Below, piece after piece: positions 31,552-39,535 of a stretch of 39,868 nt of DNA. Every line of letters begins with the position of its first letter. The first letter of the stretch is position 1. The notes below the pieces were generated by a model. The model saw only the letters and a list, made by a program, of their open reading frames with translations, was not told the DNA's origin and made no database searches. A program made the position numbers and the translations under genes. The stretch is from a virus: positions 1 through 39,868 of the IMG/VR virus record IMGVR_UViG_3300009068_000076, one strand, 5' to 3'.

Positions 31552-31887
31552 TTATATCTGAGTAATTTGAGGATTTACTGTAACGATACCTTCTATAACT
31601 CTTGTTTTTGAGCCAGTTGACGAAGTTATCTCGACATCATATAACCATCTTCCTGCGGGGATTGCTTCAGATTGGTTAGAAGTTAATTGTAGTCGGAGTT
31701 TTCCATTTGGAGCATCATAAACACTAGCTGTGAATGCATAAACTGTACTAGAAGAATAGGACTTTCTCATTTGGGAAGCGACAGTATACCCAGTTAGATT
31801 GAGTGCTGCCCCATTAGAAGACGTTACAGTGATAATATTACTGTATGTCGCCCCAGCGTCTACATAAAGATTACTAATAGTTGCCAT
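31552..31887 (-). CDS. Small Ig-like virion protein, 111 aa
   Basis: I place the start at ATG 31887 (MATISNLYVDAGATYSNIIT). An upstream in-frame ATG at 31953 exists but would lie across the terminator and late promoter at 31917-31974, so it cannot be used. The sequence NLTGYTVASQMRKSYSSSTV then GRWLYDVEITSS and TRVIEGIVTVNP is a recognisable small beta-sandwich seen beside fibre genes in marine phages, related in shape to baseplate upper proteins. It is the first gene after the promoter TATAAATA. Its role is probably structural, on the baseplate or fibre. Confidence 0.84.
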   Translation of the reverse strand: MATISNLYVDAGATYSNIITVTSSNGAALNLTGYTVASQMRKSYSSSTVYAFTASVYDAPNGKLRLQLTSNQSEAIPAGRWLYDVEITSSTGSKTRVIEGIVTVNPQITQI

Positions 31888-31976: not shown

Positions 31977-32324
31977 TTATATTTTGGGGTACTTATCTTT
32001 GATTGTTTGGATTTCAGCTTTCCAAGCATCAATCCCTCCATGAAAAATTGTATCTAACTGATCAGCTAAGGAAGGATACTCATTTAGGCGATCGTATTGA
32101 TATTGTTTGGCTTGGAATTTTTCCTGTAGTAATACAATTTCAGCTTGAACTTCTGGCCATGTAGCCTTTAGTTCTCCACCATCAAAGTGCACAGAAGCTA
32201 GGTATTCTGCTTCTGTAGTAGGAAGATTTACTGCACTACACGAAAATCCCCAAGATTCATCAGCCTTATTCATTAAAGAGATTAATGCGTCAGTTACTTC
32301 GATTTGTTTTTGTTCGATTCTCAT
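31977..32324 (-). CDS. YP-motif helical protein 3, 115 aa
   Basis: The third of three small related proteins in the 3+1 array, ending the third cassette. The C-terminal half is helical: FQAKQYQYDRLNEYPSLADQ, LDTIFHGGIDAWKAEIQTIK, DKYPKI. The YQxxRxxxYP core, then an acidic or aromatic helix and a final YPK, is shared with the proteins at 34130-34432 and 36062-36448. The N-terminal half (residues 1-58) differs from the other two. This type of protein is common beside phage fibre genes; a fibre assembly chaperone or adaptor is plausible but not shown. ATG is preceded by AAGGA. The stop is just upstream of the terminator at 31952-31974. Confidence 0.82.
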   Translation of the reverse strand: MRIEQKQIEVTDALISLMNKADESWGFSCSAVNLPTTEAEYLASVHFDGGELKATWPEVQAEIVLLQEKFQAKQYQYDRLNEYPSLADQLDTIFHGGIDAWKAEIQTIKDKYPKI

Positions 32325-32337
32325 TTATTTTTTTTCC

Positions 32338-32919
32338 TTATGCTTTAACTTCGTATGTTTGAATTGTGCAAACGTGTACTGGGTTATAATCGTTACCTGT
32401 ATTTACTGATCTATTCCAGTAAAAAGTTCTGGCACCACTGGCACTATATCCAGAAGCCCAATGAATAGCGTAAATTGTTTGAGATGTAGAGGCAATAGTT
32501 TCATGAATCAAAATGTGATCATTAAATGTTGATGCGTTAGAATCACCCCAGTTGTAAGTATAGTGACCAGTAGCTACATTTGCAGCAGCCGATGCGTGTT
32601 GTGTAGAATAATTTCCAGCTAAACTCCAAGTACTTCCGCTATTGGTAGACTTATAAACTTTAAACAAAGTAGCAATATCGTTGGTTGTTCCATATGACCC
32701 ACCCCAATACAAGTGAGCAGAAATTACCATAGTATTACCGACTCCTAATGGAGTTATGGTAGTTCTTAAGTTTCCTGGAACTTCTTCGTATACACCATCA
32801 CCAGAAAATACTTTAGTTGCAGATGTATTATTATATCCTGAGGTAGATTGCAAGATTGTACCAGAAGAAAATGCTCCTGGTAATAAACCCACAGATGAAC
32901 CTGTAATAGTCACTGGCAT
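32338..32919 (-). CDS. Receptor-binding-like protein B3, 193 aa
   Basis: The third member of the B triplet. Shared marks are YEEVPGNLRTTITP (about residues 44-57), MVISAHLYWGG, HYTYNWGDSNAS, TIYAIHWASGY, RTFYWNRSVN and a C-terminal CTIQTYEVKA. The other two B proteins have the same blocks with substitutions in between. The pattern suggests a beta-sandwich tip domain with a conserved core and variable loops. Its start overlaps the stop of B2 by one base (TAATG). It ends about 13 bases before the YP-motif gene. I infer a tail tip or receptor-binding role from family and context. Confidence 0.85.
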   Translation of the reverse strand: MPVTITGSSVGLLPGAFSSGTILQSTSGYNNTSATKVFSGDGVYEEVPGNLRTTITPLGVGNTMVISAHLYWGGSYGTTNDIATLFKVYKSTNSGSTWSLAGNYSTQHASAAANVATGHYTYNWGDSNASTFNDHILIHETIASTSQTIYAIHWASGYSASGARTFYWNRSVNTGNDYNPVHVCTIQTYEVKA

Positions 32920-33527
32920 TATCGTTTAACCTCTGTTGCTGTTAAAGTGCATGTATGAGCTGGATTGTATAAATTTGAACCAAAATTGCTGCCTCTATTC
33001 CAGTAAATCGTTCTACTAGTTGGGGCATATCCACAACCCCAATGAACAGCGTAAATTGTTGACACAGCATTAGTCACCACATCATGAACTAAAAGACTAT
33101 CTTTTTCATTGCTGTAATTACCATCACCTTTGTTATACTTATAACAACCTGTATGACCAGCTGCGGGAGCATATCCAGCAGCAGATCCTGTAATATATGA
33201 ACTGCTACTAATTTGGCTCGGACCAACTTCTAGCCAAGTAGATCCATTATCATATGACTTACGAACTCTAAAGTTAGCGCAAACATCGGTGCTTCTGGTC
33301 CATCCTCCCCAATGTAAGTGAGCATGAAGAACCATAATATTACCAACAGCTTTTGGAGTAATAGTAGCTCTAAGTTGTCCTGGAACTTCTTCGTATACGT
33401 TATATGAAGTAAATACTTTTGAACTTACTGATACATTATATCCAACAGCACTGTTAACGATGGCTCCGCTAATAAACGCTGAGTTTGGGATTGCGTTAGA
33501 ACTATTTCCTAATATTGAAAGTGCCAT
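32919..33527 (-). CDS. Receptor-binding-like protein B2, 202 aa
   Basis: The second member of the B triplet: YEEVPGQLRATITPKAVGN, MVLHAHLHWGGW, VRKSYDNGSTW, TIYAVHWGCGYAPTSRTIYW and a C-terminal CTLTATEVKR. It shares the whole core with B1 and B3 and differs mostly in the loop after residue 100, which is longer (SSSSYITGSAAGYAPAAG). Cysteines are conserved in part of the triplet (HWGCGY here, HWACGY in B1, HWASGY in B3). It starts two bases after the B1 stop and overlaps B3. The ribosome binding site sits in the last codons of B1 (AAGG). Confidence 0.85.
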   Translation of the reverse strand: MALSILGNSSNAIPNSAFISGAIVNSAVGYNVSVSSKVFTSYNVYEEVPGQLRATITPKAVGNIMVLHAHLHWGGWTRSTDVCANFRVRKSYDNGSTWLEVGPSQISSSSYITGSAAGYAPAAGHTGCYKYNKGDGNYSNEKDSLLVHDVVTNAVSTIYAVHWGCGYAPTSRTIYWNRGSNFGSNLYNPAHTCTLTATEVKR

Positions 33528-33529
33528 GT

Positions 33530-34123
33530 TTATGCCTTAATCTCTGTAACCTCAATAGTGCAAGTATGAGTACTAGTGTAGTTATATGCATTACCCCAGT
33601 TAACTGGAATGTTCCAATATAATGTTCTGCTACTCGCTTCGTATCCACATGCCCAGTGAATAGCGTAGATAGTTGGTTGTAGAGAAGTAACAGTATCGCT
33701 AATTAAAATCTGATCATCCTCAATAGAAGCATTTGTATCGCCCAAGTTATAACGATAATAACCAGTTGCGCAGTTTGCAGCAGCAACTGGGGCAGCTGTC
33801 CCATAGTTACCAGCAGCGATCCAGTTAAAGCCATCATCATAAGACTTGTAAACTCTAAAGTTTGCAGCAACGTCTACACTGTTAGTTCCGTACCATCCAC
33901 CCCAGAACAAGTGAGCACGAATCATAATAGTATTACCAAGTGCCAAGGGTTTAATATACGCTCTAAGTTGTCCTGGAACTTCTTCATACTGTGAACGTGC
34001 TGGGAATGTTCTTGTACCTCGCCATTCATTATATCCAAGTGCCATTTGAAGCGGTGCTTTGGATCTAAATGCGTTAGGAGCAATTCCAGTTCTACCAGCA
34101 GTGGATGACAATACTATTGGCAT
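33530..34123 (-). CDS. Receptor-binding-like protein B1, 197 aa
   Basis: The first member of the B triplet: YEEVPGQLRAYIKP, TIMIRAHLFWGGW, FRVYKSYDDGFNWIAAG, YYRYNLGDTNAS, TIYAIHWACGYEASSRTLYW and CTIEVTEIKA at the C-terminus. The length is within a few residues of B2 and B3. It follows the second YP-motif gene by six bases, so the third cassette starts here. The K/R-SYDDG segment has the look of a bacterial-proxy display turn. A fibre tip protein is the best inference; nothing in the sequence indicates an enzyme. Confidence 0.85.
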   Translation of the reverse strand: MPIVLSSTAGRTGIAPNAFRSKAPLQMALGYNEWRGTRTFPARSQYEEVPGQLRAYIKPLALGNTIMIRAHLFWGGWYGTNSVDVAANFRVYKSYDDGFNWIAAGNYGTAAPVAAANCATGYYRYNLGDTNASIEDDQILISDTVTSLQPTIYAIHWACGYEASSRTLYWNIPVNWGNAYNYTSTHTCTIEVTEIKA

Positions 34124-34129
34124 AATTGT

Positions 34130-34432
34130 TTACTCTGGCTTTGGGTATTTAAGTTTTACTGCATTGCAAGCATCAATATATGCTTGCATTTGAGTTTCAT
34201 CACCTTTGACTAGACCATCTAGATATTGCCTAAAGTCTGGGTATTCTCTCTCACGAAGTTTCTGATAGCGTTTGGCTTCAAACTCTGCTTTGATAACTGT
34301 AACTGCAGCTTCTACTTCTACCTTTGTTGGTTTTGTCTGAACTTTATCTTGCCAGTCGATACCCTCATATGTATCACCTGTTACGGACCAAACAGATCCT
34401 GGTCGTAATTTTGCTAATGCTAAATCAATCAT
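34130..34432 (-). CDS. YP-motif helical protein 2, 100 aa
   Basis: Start at ATG 34432, which overlaps the stop of the upstream gene as ATGA and has GGAG eight bases before it; a longer in-frame start upstream lies inside the upstream gene and lacks a site. The protein begins MIDLALAKLRPGSVWSVTGD, with the ALxxLxPGxxWxxxGDxYxxIxW head common in phage fibre-associated proteins. The helical tail follows: FEAKRYQKLREREYPDFRQY, LDGLVKGDETQMQAYIDACN, KLKYPKPE. It ends the second cassette and is the shortest of the three YP proteins. An assembly helper for the fibre tips is possible. Confidence 0.82.
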   Translation of the reverse strand: MIDLALAKLRPGSVWSVTGDTYEGIDWQDKVQTKPTKVEVEAAVTVIKAEFEAKRYQKLREREYPDFRQYLDGLVKGDETQMQAYIDACNAVKLKYPKPE

Positions 34433-34959
34433 TGTGTAATCTCCATTATAGTGAGTTGTGTTGTTGGACATCCATCATAATCCAAGTTATTATTATTTGA
34501 ATAAAAGCCATTGATGTTAAATGTATAACTTGAAAACCCGTTTAGCTGAAGTCTGTACGTAACAGCACTTGTCGAATTTGGACTGTCTGAAAAATTATAA
34601 GTTATGTTATATGTATCATGTTGGCTGCGAGAACCGTAATCATAGTAAATCATACTCCAACCTGCTTGGGGTCTGCTGCCTTCTAGATCACCTATCCCAA
34701 CTGGTGTTGTTCCATTTCTAATAATTCTACCTTTAAGTTCCCAGTAATCAGTACCAAACACTCCAGTCAGTGAACCAATAATTTTACTATTTGCAAACCT
34801 TGGTGTTATACTCAAAAGAATCGGAGTATCATACCATGTGGTTCCACTCTGTGCCTGCGACCAACGATCAGTATAATGAAATTGTAGTGTTTGTACTACA
34901 GTATTTCTATTTACACCATCAGTTGACTGCCATTTATCAAATCCCAGTTGAGAAGTCAT
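34429..34959 (-). CDS. Receptor-binding-like protein A6, 176 aa
   Basis: The third member of the middle triplet. Marks: FDKWQSTDGVNRNTVVQTLQ at the N-terminus, TTWYDTPILLSITPRFANSK (about 39-58), YWELKGRIIRNG (about 71-82), SDSPNSTSAVTYRLQLNG and the ending LTIMEITQ. The ITPxxxxSK block and the final MEI(T/Q/A)Q are shared with A4 and A5. It starts one base into the A5 stop (TAATG). Its last codons ATGGAGATT provide the ribosome binding site for the next gene. The loops in the middle are the most different part of the triplet, fitting receptor-binding variation. Confidence 0.85.
   Translation of the reverse strand: MTSQLGFDKWQSTDGVNRNTVVQTLQFHYTDRWSQAQSGTTWYDTPILLSITPRFANSKIIGSLTGVFGTDYWELKGRIIRNGTTPVGIGDLEGSRPQAGWSMIYYDYGSRSQHDTYNITYNFSDSPNSTSAVTYRLQLNGFSSYTFNINGFYSNNNNLDYDGCPTTQLTIMEITQ
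34441..34444 (-). promoter_or_regulatory. Ribosome binding site embedded in the A6 C-terminal codons
   Basis: GGAG within the A6 codons ATG GAG ATT (Met-Glu-Ile), eight bases before the ATG of YP-motif gene 2, which overlaps the A6 stop as ATGA. It decides the start at 34432 over a longer in-frame one. The same arrangement is seen for A3 (GGAG at 37030-37033) and A6 (GGAG at 34971-34974). Confidence 0.7.
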
Positions 34960-35504
34960 TATTGTTGAATCTCCATTAAGATTAGTGAACAGACTTTGCT
35001 GGCTTCATAACTTGCGCTATTTGTATAGTAATGTGAACGATTGAGGTAGACATTGTTACCATTATAGCTAGAAACTTGTAATTGATATGTCTGAGCAGTT
35101 GTACTTCCTGGAGAATCTAGGAATGTATAACCGCTAGAATATACATTATTTTTGCCTTGGTCGTTTACCATACCTTTATTGTTACAAAAACCTGCCTGTG
35201 GAGAAGTGGAAATGTAGGGAGATGGTCTGCTACCCACACCAATTACAGTGCCGTTGCGTGTGAATCTAGCGGCATGTTCCCAATAAGCAGATGCCCAGTT
35301 TAATGTGCACATTAATAAAACTTTACTGTCTGCATATTTTGGCGTGATGCTGGCTAAGAAACCAGACACGTCATAAAACGTACCACCGCTTGCGCATGCA
35401 ATTGTCATTGAAGATGTTTTGAAATACTCGACAGTCTGTATTACTACATTTCTTGCACTACCATTAGTAGTTAACCATTTATCAAATTTTGCATAAGATG
35501 TCAT
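34959..35504 (-). CDS. Receptor-binding-like protein A5, 181 aa
   Basis: Start chosen at ATG 35504 (MTSYAKFDKWLTTNG), which overlaps the A4 stop as ATGA; the longer in-frame start at 35549 would lie 45 bases inside A4, and A4 and A6 begin at the same relative point. Marks: GGTFYDVSGFLASITPKYAD then SKVLLM, YWEHAARFTRNG, FLDSPGSTTAQTYQLQVSSY and ending LILMEIQQ. It is the second member of the middle triplet, close in order and length to A4 and A6. The ribosome binding site (GGAAA) is weak and lies in the A4 C-terminal codons. Confidence 0.84.
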   Translation of the reverse strand: MTSYAKFDKWLTTNGSARNVVIQTVEYFKTSSMTIACASGGTFYDVSGFLASITPKYADSKVLLMCTLNWASAYWEHAARFTRNGTVIGVGSRPSPYISTSPQAGFCNNKGMVNDQGKNNVYSSGYTFLDSPGSTTAQTYQLQVSSYNGNNVYLNRSHYYTNSASYEASKVCSLILMEIQQ

Positions 35505-36058
35505 TGTGCGATTTCCAATAATGTAATGGTAGAAATTGGCGATGACCAATAGTCTGAGTCGAAGTTACTATAAGCTGGACGATTCATATAAATCGTGTTT
35601 GTGCTATATCCGTTTAATTTAATACCGTAAGTATATGTATTATTAGAGTTCATGGCAATCTGAGGAGTATCAAGGTATTTAATTGAATGTGTATACCAAT
35701 CATATTGAGAGTATGTGGCTGTACCATTATAGTTGTATCCATTGCAGTTAAAAGAACACGCTTGTCTAGCTTCTCGTGGTGTTCCAAGAGCAATCGGTTG
35801 CCCATTTCTAGTAAGCCTTCCTTGTATTTCCCAATACGTAGAACCAAAATGCATATCCATCATAACTAAAACTTTGCTGTCTGGATACTTTAGTGTAATA
35901 GTTGATTGAAAACCAGGAACATTATACCATGTAGTTCCATTGGCCAGTGCCTGAGCCCAAACAGTGCCACCATCATTAAATTGCACTACTTGAACAATAG
36001 CACTGTTTGTGCTACCGCTGGGAGTAGTCCATTTATCAATTTTTGCGTATGAAGGCAT
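35501..36058 (-). CDS. Receptor-binding-like protein A4, 185 aa
   Basis: The first member of the middle triplet: MPSYAKIDKWTTPSGSTNSA, then GTTWYNVPGFQSTITLKYPD, SKVLVMMDMHFGSTYWEIQG, RLTRNGQPI, YLDTPQIAMNSNNTYTYGIK and the ending TLLEIAQ. The overall layout is the widespread marine phage small-fibre fold: a short anchor helix, then a beta-sandwich with an ITPxxxxSK strand and a final strand ending in LEI. It starts three bases after the first YP-motif gene, so the second cassette begins here. Its last codons overlap A5. Confidence 0.85.
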   Translation of the reverse strand: MPSYAKIDKWTTPSGSTNSAIVQVVQFNDGGTVWAQALANGTTWYNVPGFQSTITLKYPDSKVLVMMDMHFGSTYWEIQGRLTRNGQPIALGTPREARQACSFNCNGYNYNGTATYSQYDWYTHSIKYLDTPQIAMNSNNTYTYGIKLNGYSTNTIYMNRPAYSNFDSDYWSSPISTITLLEIAQ

Positions 36059-36061
36059 CGG

Positions 36062-36448
36062 TTAGTCCTTTGGATATGCCACTTTCACTGCCTCGACTGC
36101 TGCAAGATATGCAGTCATCTTAGTACTATCACCTTTTTCTTGCCAATAAACTGCGTCTGCAAGAACTTCCCACGATGGGTATTGTTGTTTACGCAATCTT
36201 TGATATTCAGTTGATTCCCATTCAGCTTCTAATCTAACGATCTCAGCTTCTAATGCTGCCTTTGTTGGAATAACTGTTGAAGTATCAAACAAATTTACGT
36301 TTGCGATTTTGTTAACTGCAGTCGGGTTACCACTGAAATCCAACACTGGTTCCCAAGTAAAGTCTTCACCTGTCATGGAAAAACCAGCACCTGCAGGTTG
36401 GATTAAATTTGATAGTGCATTAGCTGAAAAATTTGGTTTAATAAACAT
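36062..36448 (-). CDS. YP-motif helical protein 1, 128 aa
   Basis: The longest of the three YP proteins, ending the first cassette. The N-terminal half (MFIKPNFSANALSNLIQPAG, then FSMTGEDFTWEPVLDFSGNP) is a head domain unlike the other two; the C-terminal half is helical with ESTEYQRLRKQQYPSWEVLA, DAVYWQEKGDSTKMTAYLAA and VEAVKVAYPKD. The YQxLRxxxYP core and final YPK define the group. It starts nine bases after the A3 stop. Head variation with a kept tail suggests that the head binds a partner specific to each cassette, which is an inference. Confidence 0.83.
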   Translation of the reverse strand: MFIKPNFSANALSNLIQPAGAGFSMTGEDFTWEPVLDFSGNPTAVNKIANVNLFDTSTVIPTKAALEAEIVRLEAEWESTEYQRLRKQQYPSWEVLADAVYWQEKGDSTKMTAYLAAVEAVKVAYPKD

Positions 36449-36457
36449 ATTATATCC

Positions 36458-37021
36458 TTAAGTTGCGATTTCAAAAACTGTAATTTTATTATTGTTGGGG
36501 TAAGTACCGTGACCCATACTAATAGTGCCAGCAGAAGTCCATCCACCTAGCACAACAGTCATAGTAAATGGAGTGCCTTTGGCTAGACCTGGACTGTATA
36601 AGACAGATCTAGTTCTGGACCAACTTATAGTACTAATACCAGAATTATGTGCAAACCCCATCCATGTATCACTACTAGATAAACCAGCGTTCATAGTAAA
36701 TGCATACTGTGCACTGTCATCAGCACCTGGAACATTACTTACCGCATTAGTGACACCAGTCATACCCGTGCGACCCCAGATACCTACATTCCATCCATTA
36801 GTAGCACCAGCTGATACATATCCTTGAAGATCAGCTACGGCTAAAAATTTACTATTATCACTCAATGGATTAATTGTGATACTAAGTGGTGTCTGAATGT
36901 ATGCACCGCCAGGATCTGTTACAGTAAATGATGTAGTATACTGCTGAGACTTTACTTGCAAAATATTCTGATAAACAGAACCATCTCTTGCTGTTAATTT
37001 ATTTGCTTTTAGCGTACTCAC
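36458..37021 (-). CDS. Receptor-binding-like protein A3, 187 aa
   Basis: A GTG start at 37021 overlaps the A2 stop as GTGA. The N-terminus MSTLKANKLTARDGSVYQNI is the usual start of marine phage small-fibre proteins. Marks: YIQTPLSITINPLSDNSKFL, SDTWMGFAHNSGISTISWSR, GTPFTMTVVLGGW and the ending KITVFEIAT. It is the third member of the first triplet, matching A2 in most blocks (for example WMGFGHNS and SWTRTR). The ribosome binding site is the GGAG within the A2 MEI codons, eight bases before GTG. Confidence 0.84.
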   Translation of the reverse strand: MSTLKANKLTARDGSVYQNILQVKSQQYTTSFTVTDPGGAYIQTPLSITINPLSDNSKFLAVADLQGYVSAGATNGWNVGIWGRTGMTGVTNAVSNVPGADDSAQYAFTMNAGLSSSDTWMGFAHNSGISTISWSRTRSVLYSPGLAKGTPFTMTVVLGGWTSAGTISMGHGTYPNNNKITVFEIAT

Positions 37022-37542
37022 GCTGCGATCTCCATAACGTGAATTCTGGAAGTTTGATTATAACCTGGATAATGTGACCATCCAGTACCAGAAGATGTCC
37101 ATCCACCAAACCAAAGTTTATAAGTTAAAGATGTCCCTTTCGGTTGTCCTGGATCGTCAAATGCAGTTCTTGTTCTAGTCCAACTTGATGATGTTAAATT
37201 ACTATTGTGTCCAAACCCCATCCATGCGTCGCTATCACTACCAGCAGCAACACCAGATCTACCAGTGATAAAGACATCTGCGCCTAAACCAATTTTTCTA
37301 GTAAAAGCAATATTCCAACCATTGCTGAAATTAGTACTATAACACTGTTGACTGCATATAATATAGAATCTACTATTAGCTTTTTTTGTAGTAATAGTAA
37401 CATTTAATGGAGTCTCTGAATAAAGTCCATTCGGGTTTGTTACAGAGAATGTTGTAGTTGATGTGCCTTGAGCTAACTGTAAAATTGTATTGTACGTTTC
37501 GCCCGTAGAATTTGCCCAATTGTCTGCTTTTACTATACTCAT
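37018..37542 (-). CDS. Receptor-binding-like protein A2, 174 aa
   Basis: Starts MSIVKADNWANSTGETYNTI, then TTTFSVTNPNGLYSETPLNV, TITTKKANSRFYII, DAWMGFGHNSNLTSSSWTRT, GTSLTYKLWFGGW and ending RIHVMEIAA. It is the second member of the first triplet, sharing the SDxWxGF and final EIA blocks with A1 and A3. The ATGGAGATC codons near the stop double as the ribosome binding site for A3. It starts nine bases after the A1 stop. A fibre-tip beta-sandwich is the most likely fold. Confidence 0.85.
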   Translation of the reverse strand: MSIVKADNWANSTGETYNTILQLAQGTSTTTFSVTNPNGLYSETPLNVTITTKKANSRFYIICSQQCYSTNFSNGWNIAFTRKIGLGADVFITGRSGVAAGSDSDAWMGFGHNSNLTSSSWTRTRTAFDDPGQPKGTSLTYKLWFGGWTSSGTGWSHYPGYNQTSRIHVMEIAA

Positions 37543-37551
37543 GATATTATT

Positions 37552-38073
37552 TTATGCCTCTATTTCAAGAACGATAATTTTATTATGTGGGGTGTGGGTA
37601 GTCCATCCTACAGTGTGATGTCCTGTAGATGCTGAAATTGTAGCATACGTTACATTATACGTAATACTAGTTCCCGCAGCGACATTGGGTGTATCTAAGA
37701 AAGTTCTCATTATATTGTATGAAGTAGCATTACCCCATGCAGAACTATTGCCAAAACCAACCCAACTATCACTACCAGTTCCATTAACACCCAGAACAAG
37801 AGTTCTAGTTCCCCCAATTGTTCTTGCGAATCCAGTATTACAAGCACAGTCTGTTGCTTGAATATATCCAGTAATATCAGACATTAAGAAGAATTTACTA
37901 TTAGCTTTTTTAGATGTTATAGTGACTGAAATATTACAATCATAAAAATTATTAGATGTTCCAGAAGATGCAATCTGAAAGATAGAAGACTGCAGTCCAG
38001 TTGCGGTTTGAAGACATCTATTATAAGATGTATCGTCTAAGGCTTTCCACGTGTCAACATTAAGAGTAGTCAT
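37552..38073 (-). CDS. Receptor-binding-like protein A1, 173 aa
   Basis: Start chosen at ATG 38073 (MTTLNVDTWKALDDTSYNRC); the in-frame start at 38139 overlaps the end of the upstream gene by 56 bases, and the chosen one matches where A2 and A3 begin. Marks: FYDCNISVTITSKKANSKFF, SDSWVGFGNSSAWGNATSYN, FLDTPNVAAGTSITYNVTYA and the ending NKIIVLEIEA. It is the first member of the first triplet and begins the array. It has two extra cysteines close together (TDCACN). The upstream ribosome binding site is weak (AAAGA). Confidence 0.82.
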   Translation of the reverse strand: MTTLNVDTWKALDDTSYNRCLQTATGLQSSIFQIASSGTSNNFYDCNISVTITSKKANSKFFLMSDITGYIQATDCACNTGFARTIGGTRTLVLGVNGTGSDSWVGFGNSSAWGNATSYNIMRTFLDTPNVAAGTSITYNVTYATISASTGHHTVGWTTHTPHNKIIVLEIEA

Positions 38074-38083
38074 TATATAATCT

Positions 38084-38794
38084 TTATACGATTGTCCAAG
38101 TAGATCCGTCCTGAATTGTAACTGTTTTTCCATCAGCAATACTAATCGGTCCAGCTGTCATAGCATTTTTATTTAGAGGGATAGTATAATCTTGGAAGAT
38201 AGTAAGATCATTTAAGAAGAAAATACTATCTGATCCACCACCAATCGCACCAGAAGAAACCACAGTACCAGTTTGACCATTAAACGATAACACACCAGTG
38301 TTTGCAATAGTTGGGTTTGCAGAAACACCATCACCACTTGTTACAGAAATACCATTTCCTGCAGTAATCGTTCTAGTTGATATACCACCATTACCAGTTC
38401 TAACAGTAATACCATTGGTTGATAATCCAGCAAGGGCAGCCAAATCGACATCATATGCTTGTACGTTAACACCAATTTCTAAACCAAGAGTCACTCTAGC
38501 ACCTTCAGCGCTAGAAGCACCAGTACCGCCATCGGCAATTGCTAAGTCAGTAATACCAGAGATAGATCCACCAGTAATAGTTACAGAACTAGACTCTTGA
38601 GTTGCAATGGAACCCAATCCTAGATTAGTTCTTGCAGTTGTTGCAGATTGTAGATCACTAAGATTATTACCAAGTTCTAATTTATTTGTGTTTAGACTTA
38701 GAAAGTTATTATCAATTTCAGCGTTGGTTAGAGGAGTTCCCTTTACAGTTGCCCCAGTACCTGCCGTACTTCTAGTCGTTAATGCAGTTGCCAT
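38084..38794 (-). CDS. Short tail fibre protein, 236 aa
   Basis: Begins MATALTTRSTAGTGATVKGT with PLTNAEIDNNFLSLNTNK, a standard fibre start, then LSDLQSATTARTNLGLGSIA, DLAIADGGTGASSAEGARVT, LGLEIGVNVQAYDVDLAALA and the C-terminus MTAGPISIADGKTVTIQDGS TWTIV, all familiar fibre motifs. A late promoter element (AATAAATA) lies about 32 bases upstream. It is the first gene of the fibre unit that runs through the 3+1 array to the terminator at 31952-31974. Its role is probably a fibre shaft that the small tip proteins build on, by inference. Confidence 0.88.
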   Translation of the reverse strand: MATALTTRSTAGTGATVKGTPLTNAEIDNNFLSLNTNKLELGNNLSDLQSATTARTNLGLGSIATQESSSVTITGGSISGITDLAIADGGTGASSAEGARVTLGLEIGVNVQAYDVDLAALAGLSTNGITVRTGNGGISTRTITAGNGISVTSGDGVSANPTIANTGVLSFNGQTGTVVSSGAIGGGSDSIFFLNDLTIFQDYTIPLNKNAMTAGPISIADGKTVTIQDGSTWTIV

Positions 38795-38839: not shown

Positions 38840-39535
38840 TCAACCTACTAATAGGTTTCCTGAGTGACACCTTATCGCTTCGTCAATTAAAGTTAAGTCG
38901 TTTATATCTACAAAAAATCGTATCATTAAAGCTGGTTTATCGCTGTAATTAAACACATTATGATAGTGATAAGAGTTAAAAATATAAGGAGTTCCATTAG
39001 TATATTTAGAGTCATACGAGACGATTGGTTCTAAAGTAAAATCTGATCCTCTATATTTTCTATAATCTACAACGGAATTCTTAAACCCTTCTGGTATAGA
39101 AATAGGAAGCTGAACTATTAATATGTTCTCTGGTTGGTGAAACTCAAACACATGGCTATGCCAACCTATAATAGTATTCGGCATAACCTCTTCAATTCTA
39201 ACCATTGACTTACCAGCACCTAGTTTTTCTAAAACCATATAGGTATAGGGCATATATTCTGATAAGCCAGTTTTTTGAAATTTACCAAAATTCTTTTCTA
39301 ATTCTGGTCCTCCATCACCTTCCTCTGTACTACAAAATATACTTCCATCAAGACTATAAAGAGCCAAATTATTCCACCCAACAATTTTATGATTGTGGGC
39401 TTTTTGCATATTTGCGTTATAGCTCATTAGAGGATAGGGAAGATCTCTAATTTCTTTTTCAATTCGACTTGCGTCAAACTTAAACAGCATCGGCAGATGC
39501 GGGATTTGTTTAACTTGTTCTAACAAACTGTTCAT
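38840..39535 (-). CDS. Aspartyl/asparaginyl beta-hydroxylase-like oxygenase, 231 aa
   Basis: The C-terminal half resembles the 2-oxoglutarate/Fe(II) double-stranded beta-helix of the aspartyl/asparaginyl beta-hydroxylase family. GWHSHVFEFHQPENILIVQL (from residue 124) gives a first iron-ligand candidate His 126 and the ligand strand; PYIFNSYHYHNVFNYSDKPA (183-202) matches the family F(D/N)(D/S)xxxHxV block, with His 192 as second iron ligand; Arg 206 in MIRFFVDI fits the 2-oxoglutarate-binding Arg. Such enzymes hydroxylate Asp, Asn or other residues. The target here is unknown. The first 26 bases overlap the upstream small gene. It lies directly before the fibre array. The family call is by motif only. 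Confidence 0.7.
   Translation of the reverse strand: MNSLLEQVKQIPHLPMLFKFDASRIEKEIRDLPYPLMSYNANMQKAHNHKIVGWNNLALYSLDGSIFCSTEEGDGGPELEKNFGKFQKTGLSEYMPYTYMVLEKLGAGKSMVRIEEVMPNTIIGWHSHVFEFHQPENILIVQLPISIPEGFKNSVVDYRKYRGSDFTLEPIVSYDSKYTNGTPYIFNSYHYHNVFNYSDKPALMIRFFVDINDLTLIDEAIRCHSGNLLVG

Follow-up and report, generated by a model that had tools for sequence, protein, structure and literature searches.

Fibre tips of tailed phages are generally taken to be homotrimers. In C1q, one each of three paralogous jelly-roll chains, A, B and C, makes up every trimeric head; this is a eukaryotic immune protein with a collagen stalk, and no shared ancestry is claimed for it here. Our literature search for heterotrimeric phage fibres returned a single system, virophage DSLV2, in which three consecutive paralogous tail proteins form a 1:1:1 heterotrimer by co-purification, cluster by position across genomes, and are reported to be related to tail proteins of Synechococcus phages (PMC12724248). 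A-1(L) was considered as a second precedent and set aside, as "heterotrimeric" refers there to baseplate wedges. Here we describe twelve tightly packed genes of a marine phage, on the minus strand of the 39,868-base virus record IMGVR_UViG_3300009068_000076 (positions 1-39,868, hereafter the window). They lie at 31977-38073, downstream of the fibre shaft gene F0, and follow a 3+1 plan of three paralogous tip genes and then one gene for a small protein of the YP family; the transcription order is A1-A2-A3-YP1, A4-A5-A6-YP2, B1-B2-B3-YP3 (Table 1). On balance, each 3+1 unit probably encodes one heterotrimeric fibre tip together with its chaperone.

The first-pass annotation of this DNA held that no described system has this layout, which is too strong: the architecture is not unprecedented, since the deposited genome of Prochlorococcus podovirus P-SSP7 (NC_006882) contains a set of 3+1 genes, and the products of three consecutive DSLV2 tail genes have been shown biochemically to form a heterotrimer (PMC12724248). 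In P-SSP7 the shaft gp17, with the same end motif as F0, precedes tips ORF37-39 and YP ORF40, all annotated merely as tail fiber or uncharacterized; it differs in being a short-tailed, T7-like phage and in having a further tip, ORF41, after the YP gene. The window shares with DSLV2 three consecutive paralogous genes and, in part, positional orthology, which applies to all units between two related contigs, only to unit 2 between the window and these contigs, and to the N-termini of 15 other loci (all described below). DSLV2 differs in that its protein is a capsid fibre of a virophage and has a collar domain (PF07484), encoded by one triplet only, and in that the paper never mentions a chaperone (PMC12724248); a Pfam scan of six window tips (A1, A3, A4, A6, B1, and B3) gave no match to PF07484. 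By analogy, the window tips may work like those of DSLV2, although we do not claim membership in that type. Neither the 3+1 plan, nor the exchange of heads behind position-specific N-terminal segments, nor their spread in tailed phages was found described in the literature searched.

The array and its triplets, both proposed in the first-pass annotation, are borne out by the analysis. All open reading frames (ORFs) are in place, with adjacent genes 2-13 bases apart or overlapping by 1-4 bases. Pairwise identity within triplets is 29-39% (A1-A3), 34-36% (A4-A6), and 47-53% (B1-B3), and far lower between triplets; among all 280 partitions of the nine tips into threes, this grouping scores best (2895 vs. 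2294 for the runner-up). Most of the motifs named at the outset are also present, namely SDxWxGF in A1-A3, YWExxxR and RNG in A4-A6, YEEVPGxLR, AHLxWGG, and HWxxGY in B1-B3, and YQxxRxxxYP in YP1-YP3. Two need amending: ITPKxxxSK, given for A4-A6, is exact in A5 but reads ITLK in A4 and ITPR in A6, and the C-terminal EIx given for A1-A3 is present as E-I/V but is family-wide. The window is a piece of a T4-like phage genome: it encodes a portal protein and a virion protein that shares 43% identity with those of cyanomyoviruses.

Table 1. Shaft, tip, and YP genes of the window, in transcription order.
Feature	Place in array	Length (aa)	Coordinates (strand)	Basis and remarks
F0, short fibre shaft	upstream of unit 1		38084..38794 (-)	PHROG matches at C-terminal end
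A1 tip	unit 1, position 1	173	37552..38073 (-)	phrog_6942 match; identity comparisons
A2 tip	unit 1, position 2	174	37018..37542 (-)	identity comparisons
A3 tip	unit 1, position 3	187	36458..37021 (-)	GTG start; 4-base overlap with A2
YP1, putative assembly chaperone	closes unit 1	128	36062..36448 (-)	phrog_9114; pairs with YP1 of L002/L003
A4 tip	unit 2, position 1	185	35501..36058 (-)	phrog_6942; positional match to A4 of L002/L003
A5 tip	unit 2, position 2	181	34959..35504 (-)	positional match to A5 of L002/L003
A6 tip	unit 2, position 3	176	34429..34959 (-)	AlphaFold2 jelly-roll; TNF-like matches
YP2, putative assembly chaperone	closes unit 2	100	34130..34432 (-)	4-base overlap with A6; AlphaFold2 model
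B1 tip	unit 3, position 1	197	33530..34123 (-)	weak phrog_6942 match
B2 tip	unit 3, position 2	202	32919..33527 (-)	identity comparisons
B3 tip	unit 3, position 3	193	32338..32919 (-)	identity comparisons
YP3, putative assembly chaperone	closes unit 3	115	31977..32324 (-)	phrog_9114; 50-53% identical to YP3 of L002, L001

The whole arrangement is kept in two other IMG/VR contigs, L002 and L003+L001; as a caution, the latter is read from two stretches of a single contig, separated by a gap of 10 bases within the A6 gene. Both contain the complete 3x(3+1) array (shaft, AAA-YP, AAA-YP, BBB-YP), so its order is not due to chance. Tips at matching positions of the two contigs share 61-74% identity, against mostly 36-54% for triplet mates of the same genome; in the tree each such pair has a branch to itself, most with full support, and in-order pairing is the best of the six possible in every unit. 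Because the tips pair by position, the three members of a triplet must be old, distinct, and not interchangeable. We also tried to read all three window units as positional orthologs of these contigs; unit 2 and the YP proteins match in order, but the reading does not hold for units 1 and 3. The tips of window unit 1 make up a separate clade, therefore the whole triplet was either replaced or made anew. In L002 (10001-10702) and L003 (2640-3335), A4, the first tip of unit 2, has about 50 extra residues that are absent from its triplet mates and from window A4.

To place the array in a wider context, IMG/VR was scanned with the YP family, independently of tip number, which gave 80 loci. Near-copies were then merged into clusters, and a small number of counts were adjusted manually once the sequences had been read. 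Eight YP clusters have three tips directly upstream, one has two, 59 have one, and none has four, with 13 in the zero class, meaning no separate tip gene directly upstream. By our calculation, at least eight threes among nine would be expected in about 2% of trials if two and three were equally likely. One of the triplets (L050) is cut by a contig end. Four loci first read as 2+1 (L005, L016, L028, and L068) turned out to be a shaft plus one tip, and Pelagibacter phage Lederberg, first read as 3+1, is 4+1 when read across the start of its circular record. In two of the triplets (L032 and L050) the heads have no detectable relation to the A/B family, so the plan either has more than one origin or tolerates heads of unrelated kinds. 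The functional 3+1 unit suggested by the first-pass annotation thus has the order it called for in relatives, in the two contigs as well as in the census and other loci, and its three-part plan is found again in phages that are unrelated.

Tandem repeats of 1+1 units are common in the census, and the triplets could in principle be a reservoir left by tandem duplication, that is, spare host-range cassettes used singly or switched, with the threes partly due to chance. The existence of 4+1 and 2+1 sets and the shuffling of heads between positions would agree with this. We nevertheless consider such a reservoir very unlikely, as it does not account for the excess of three over two, for a fixed order with positional orthologs at 61-74% identity and no sign of homogenization, or for N-termini that are specific to position.

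This last property is clearest in a second 3+1 family, whose tips begin with MSEL(T/S)VG(Q/E)L at position 1, mostly MSQLRV or MSELRV at position 2, and MTSTMRFD(K/R)W at position 3. Across 15 loci, identity over the first 18 residues is 70% at the same position vs. 22% at different positions (p 0.0003), and the best N-terminal partner stands at the same position in all 45 proteins. The heads show no such pattern (34% identity at the same vs. 31% at different positions). For 20 of the 45 proteins the best head match is at another position, with identity of up to 88% (L042 position 1 and L128 position 3), and a single head family is represented at all three positions. The head at position 2 of L051 is a C1q domain (E 1e-16). 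A further scan, whose only seed was the position-1 segment, detected all three tips wherever a locus had sufficient sequence, with the order altered in one (L137). Six loci (L145-L150) keep the three N-terminal addresses while several small genes between the tips replace the single closing YP; the number of partner genes thus varies more than the addresses do.

These data bear on a second alternative, that each triplet yields three different homotrimeric tips, whose N-termini would prevent mixing of the paralogs and direct them to separate docking sites or fibres; one virion would then display several tip types. Heads that swap positions and mix folds within one triplet would be expected in that case, as would the separate small partner genes of L145-L150; TNF-like heads usually self-trimerize, and a related fused form (PDB 9efk, see below) has its chain 18 times. 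We regard three homotrimers as somewhat unlikely, since they leave the excess of three over two unexplained, there is one upstream shaft gene with one type of end, and serial stacking would require docking sites on the very heads that are exchanged.

The nine window proteins appear to be TNF-like jelly-roll fibre tips, the fold being modelled on A6. Its AlphaFold2 model (pLDDT 89) is a jelly-roll whose best matches among solved structures are the C-terminal domain of chlamydial pGP3 (E 5e-7) and the TNF-like lectin PLTL (TM up to 0.79). In the PHROG search, the C-terminal part of the tail fibre family phrog_6942 was matched by A4 and A6 (E<1e-7), A1 (6e-6), and weakly B1 (1e-3), while A3 and B3 had no match to this family; direct tblastn of B1 against named phages also gave no match. 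By sequence comparison, A and B tips are distant relatives of each other. A profile of A-type tips, built from 79 sequences, matches the C-terminal ~160 residues of orf22 in PDB 9efk (E 1e-35), a protein of 658 residues present as 18 identical chains, which we read as six homotrimeric fibres. Tip and shaft are fused there in one gene and all chains are identical, in contrast to the separate paralogs described here. Together, the fold, the PDB fibre C-terminus, and phrog_6942 agree with the tip identity originally assigned to these proteins, and the 18 chains of 9efk, along with the trimer-forming TNF-like fold, suggest that the tips form trimers. Residues 179-236 of F0 match the C-terminal ends of fibre families in the PHROG search; the final ~58 residues of F0 form a fibre-end module (..NAMTAGPISIADGKTVTIQDGSTWTIV) that other fibres share. 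The same type of ending is found in the shafts preceding the tips of L002, L003, P-SSP7 (gp17), and most other 3+1 loci, and this module probably receives the tips.

With three recurring, paralogs specific to position, and a single shaft end, we favour a heterotrimer. In the simplest reading, a trimeric shaft end accepts either a single tip protein in triplicate or three different tips, one of each. The 1:1:1 complex of DSLV2 (PMC12724248) and the TNF-like tip of phage Pam3 with its dedicated chaperone (PMC9608196; see below) lend support from other systems. Under the heterotrimeric reading, the three paralogs would be co-expressed from overlapping genes, and their short N-terminal segments, as three specialized versions of one stalk element, would dock one each (1:1:1) on a homotrimeric shaft such as F0, at its three-fold end. 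Each chain would bear a TNF-like or other head, giving three different binding faces per fibre end, and YP would be a dedicated chaperone that folds and assembles the tip, made together with its unit. The ancestral form would have been 1+1, with a single gene and N-terminal version filling all three places; in the window phage, the three units behind one shaft gene may be alternative tips or may serve different fibres. More generally, tailed phages may have an address-and-head system, in which three position-coded N-terminal segments build a 1:1:1 end and interchangeable heads of several folds are exchanged independently, so that each fibre has three different receptor-binding heads; this we propose tentatively, as possible but not quite probable.

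The role of the YP proteins was approached through their position, size, and fold, which make an assembly chaperone or partner plausible. They fall in phrog_9114, a family of unknown function, and sequence searches yielded no informative family, no match to known chaperone families of the Tfa, gp38, or Pam3 gp25 type, and no match to PDB chains. YP2 is modelled (AlphaFold2 pLDDT 95) as a short beta-hairpin plus helices; its best PDB match in a fold search, XkdW of the PBSX tail region, is weak (E 1.4), and none is significant. Identification of YP as a known chaperone was therefore dropped, as neither sequence nor fold gave a usable match. A described counterpart is phage Pam3, where chaperone gp25 binds fibre gp24 at 3:3 (PMC9608196). 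The pair, a TNF-like tip with a small two-domain chaperone (PMC9608196), would resemble a window unit if YP is a chaperone of that kind, and differs in having one fibre protein, as a homotrimer, and a 3:3 chaperone. YP-family proteins also occur in bacterial genome contigs (L153-L175), mostly directly after large fibre-like genes; these contigs are probably prophages or phage contigs. That YP proteins are instead minor parts of the virion, such as a tip cap, would be compatible with any of the tip models, and would suit genes that always close the unit and the lack of a significant structural or family match to known chaperones. We think this unlikely, given that YP is a small helical protein encoded directly downstream of tips or large fibre-like genes, as known fibre chaperones are, and that its best fold match, weak as it is, is to XkdW.

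Several observations weigh against one heterotrimer plus one chaperone per unit. The number of tips varies, with two per YP in L026, four before one YP in Lederberg, a 2+1 set with another type of partner in Melnitz, and a fourth tip after the YP of P-SSP7. Units 1 and 3 of the window do not match the related contigs position by position, and YP has neither a significant structural match nor an informative family. The main doubt concerns the heads, which are mixed so freely, with even C1q and TNF-like heads side by side in a triplet, that tight head-to-head contacts are hardly relied on; such mixing may fit independent heads or homotrimeric heads.

Two genes flank the array. Adjoining YP3, a 111-aa protein (31552-31887, minus strand) matches phrog_3304, "L-shaped tail fiber protein assembly," and has a weak match to the N-terminal domain of BppU; it has a close relative in L002 (E 2e-62). 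Directly upstream of F0, a 231-aa protein (38840-39535, minus strand) has a sub-threshold match to Aspartyl/Asparaginyl beta-hydroxylase (E 2.7e-4), and 2OG-Fe(II) oxygenase genes are also found near tip and YP genes in P-RSM4, S-TIM4, and S-CAM8. From these gene neighbourhoods, a link to fibre modification is conceivable.

Cryo-electron tomography has already been used to image P-SSP7 on its host (PMC5345008), and because this phage carries such a cassette, the question is directly testable. If the heterotrimeric reading is correct, one fibre would carry three specificities, and host recognition would evolve one head at a time.

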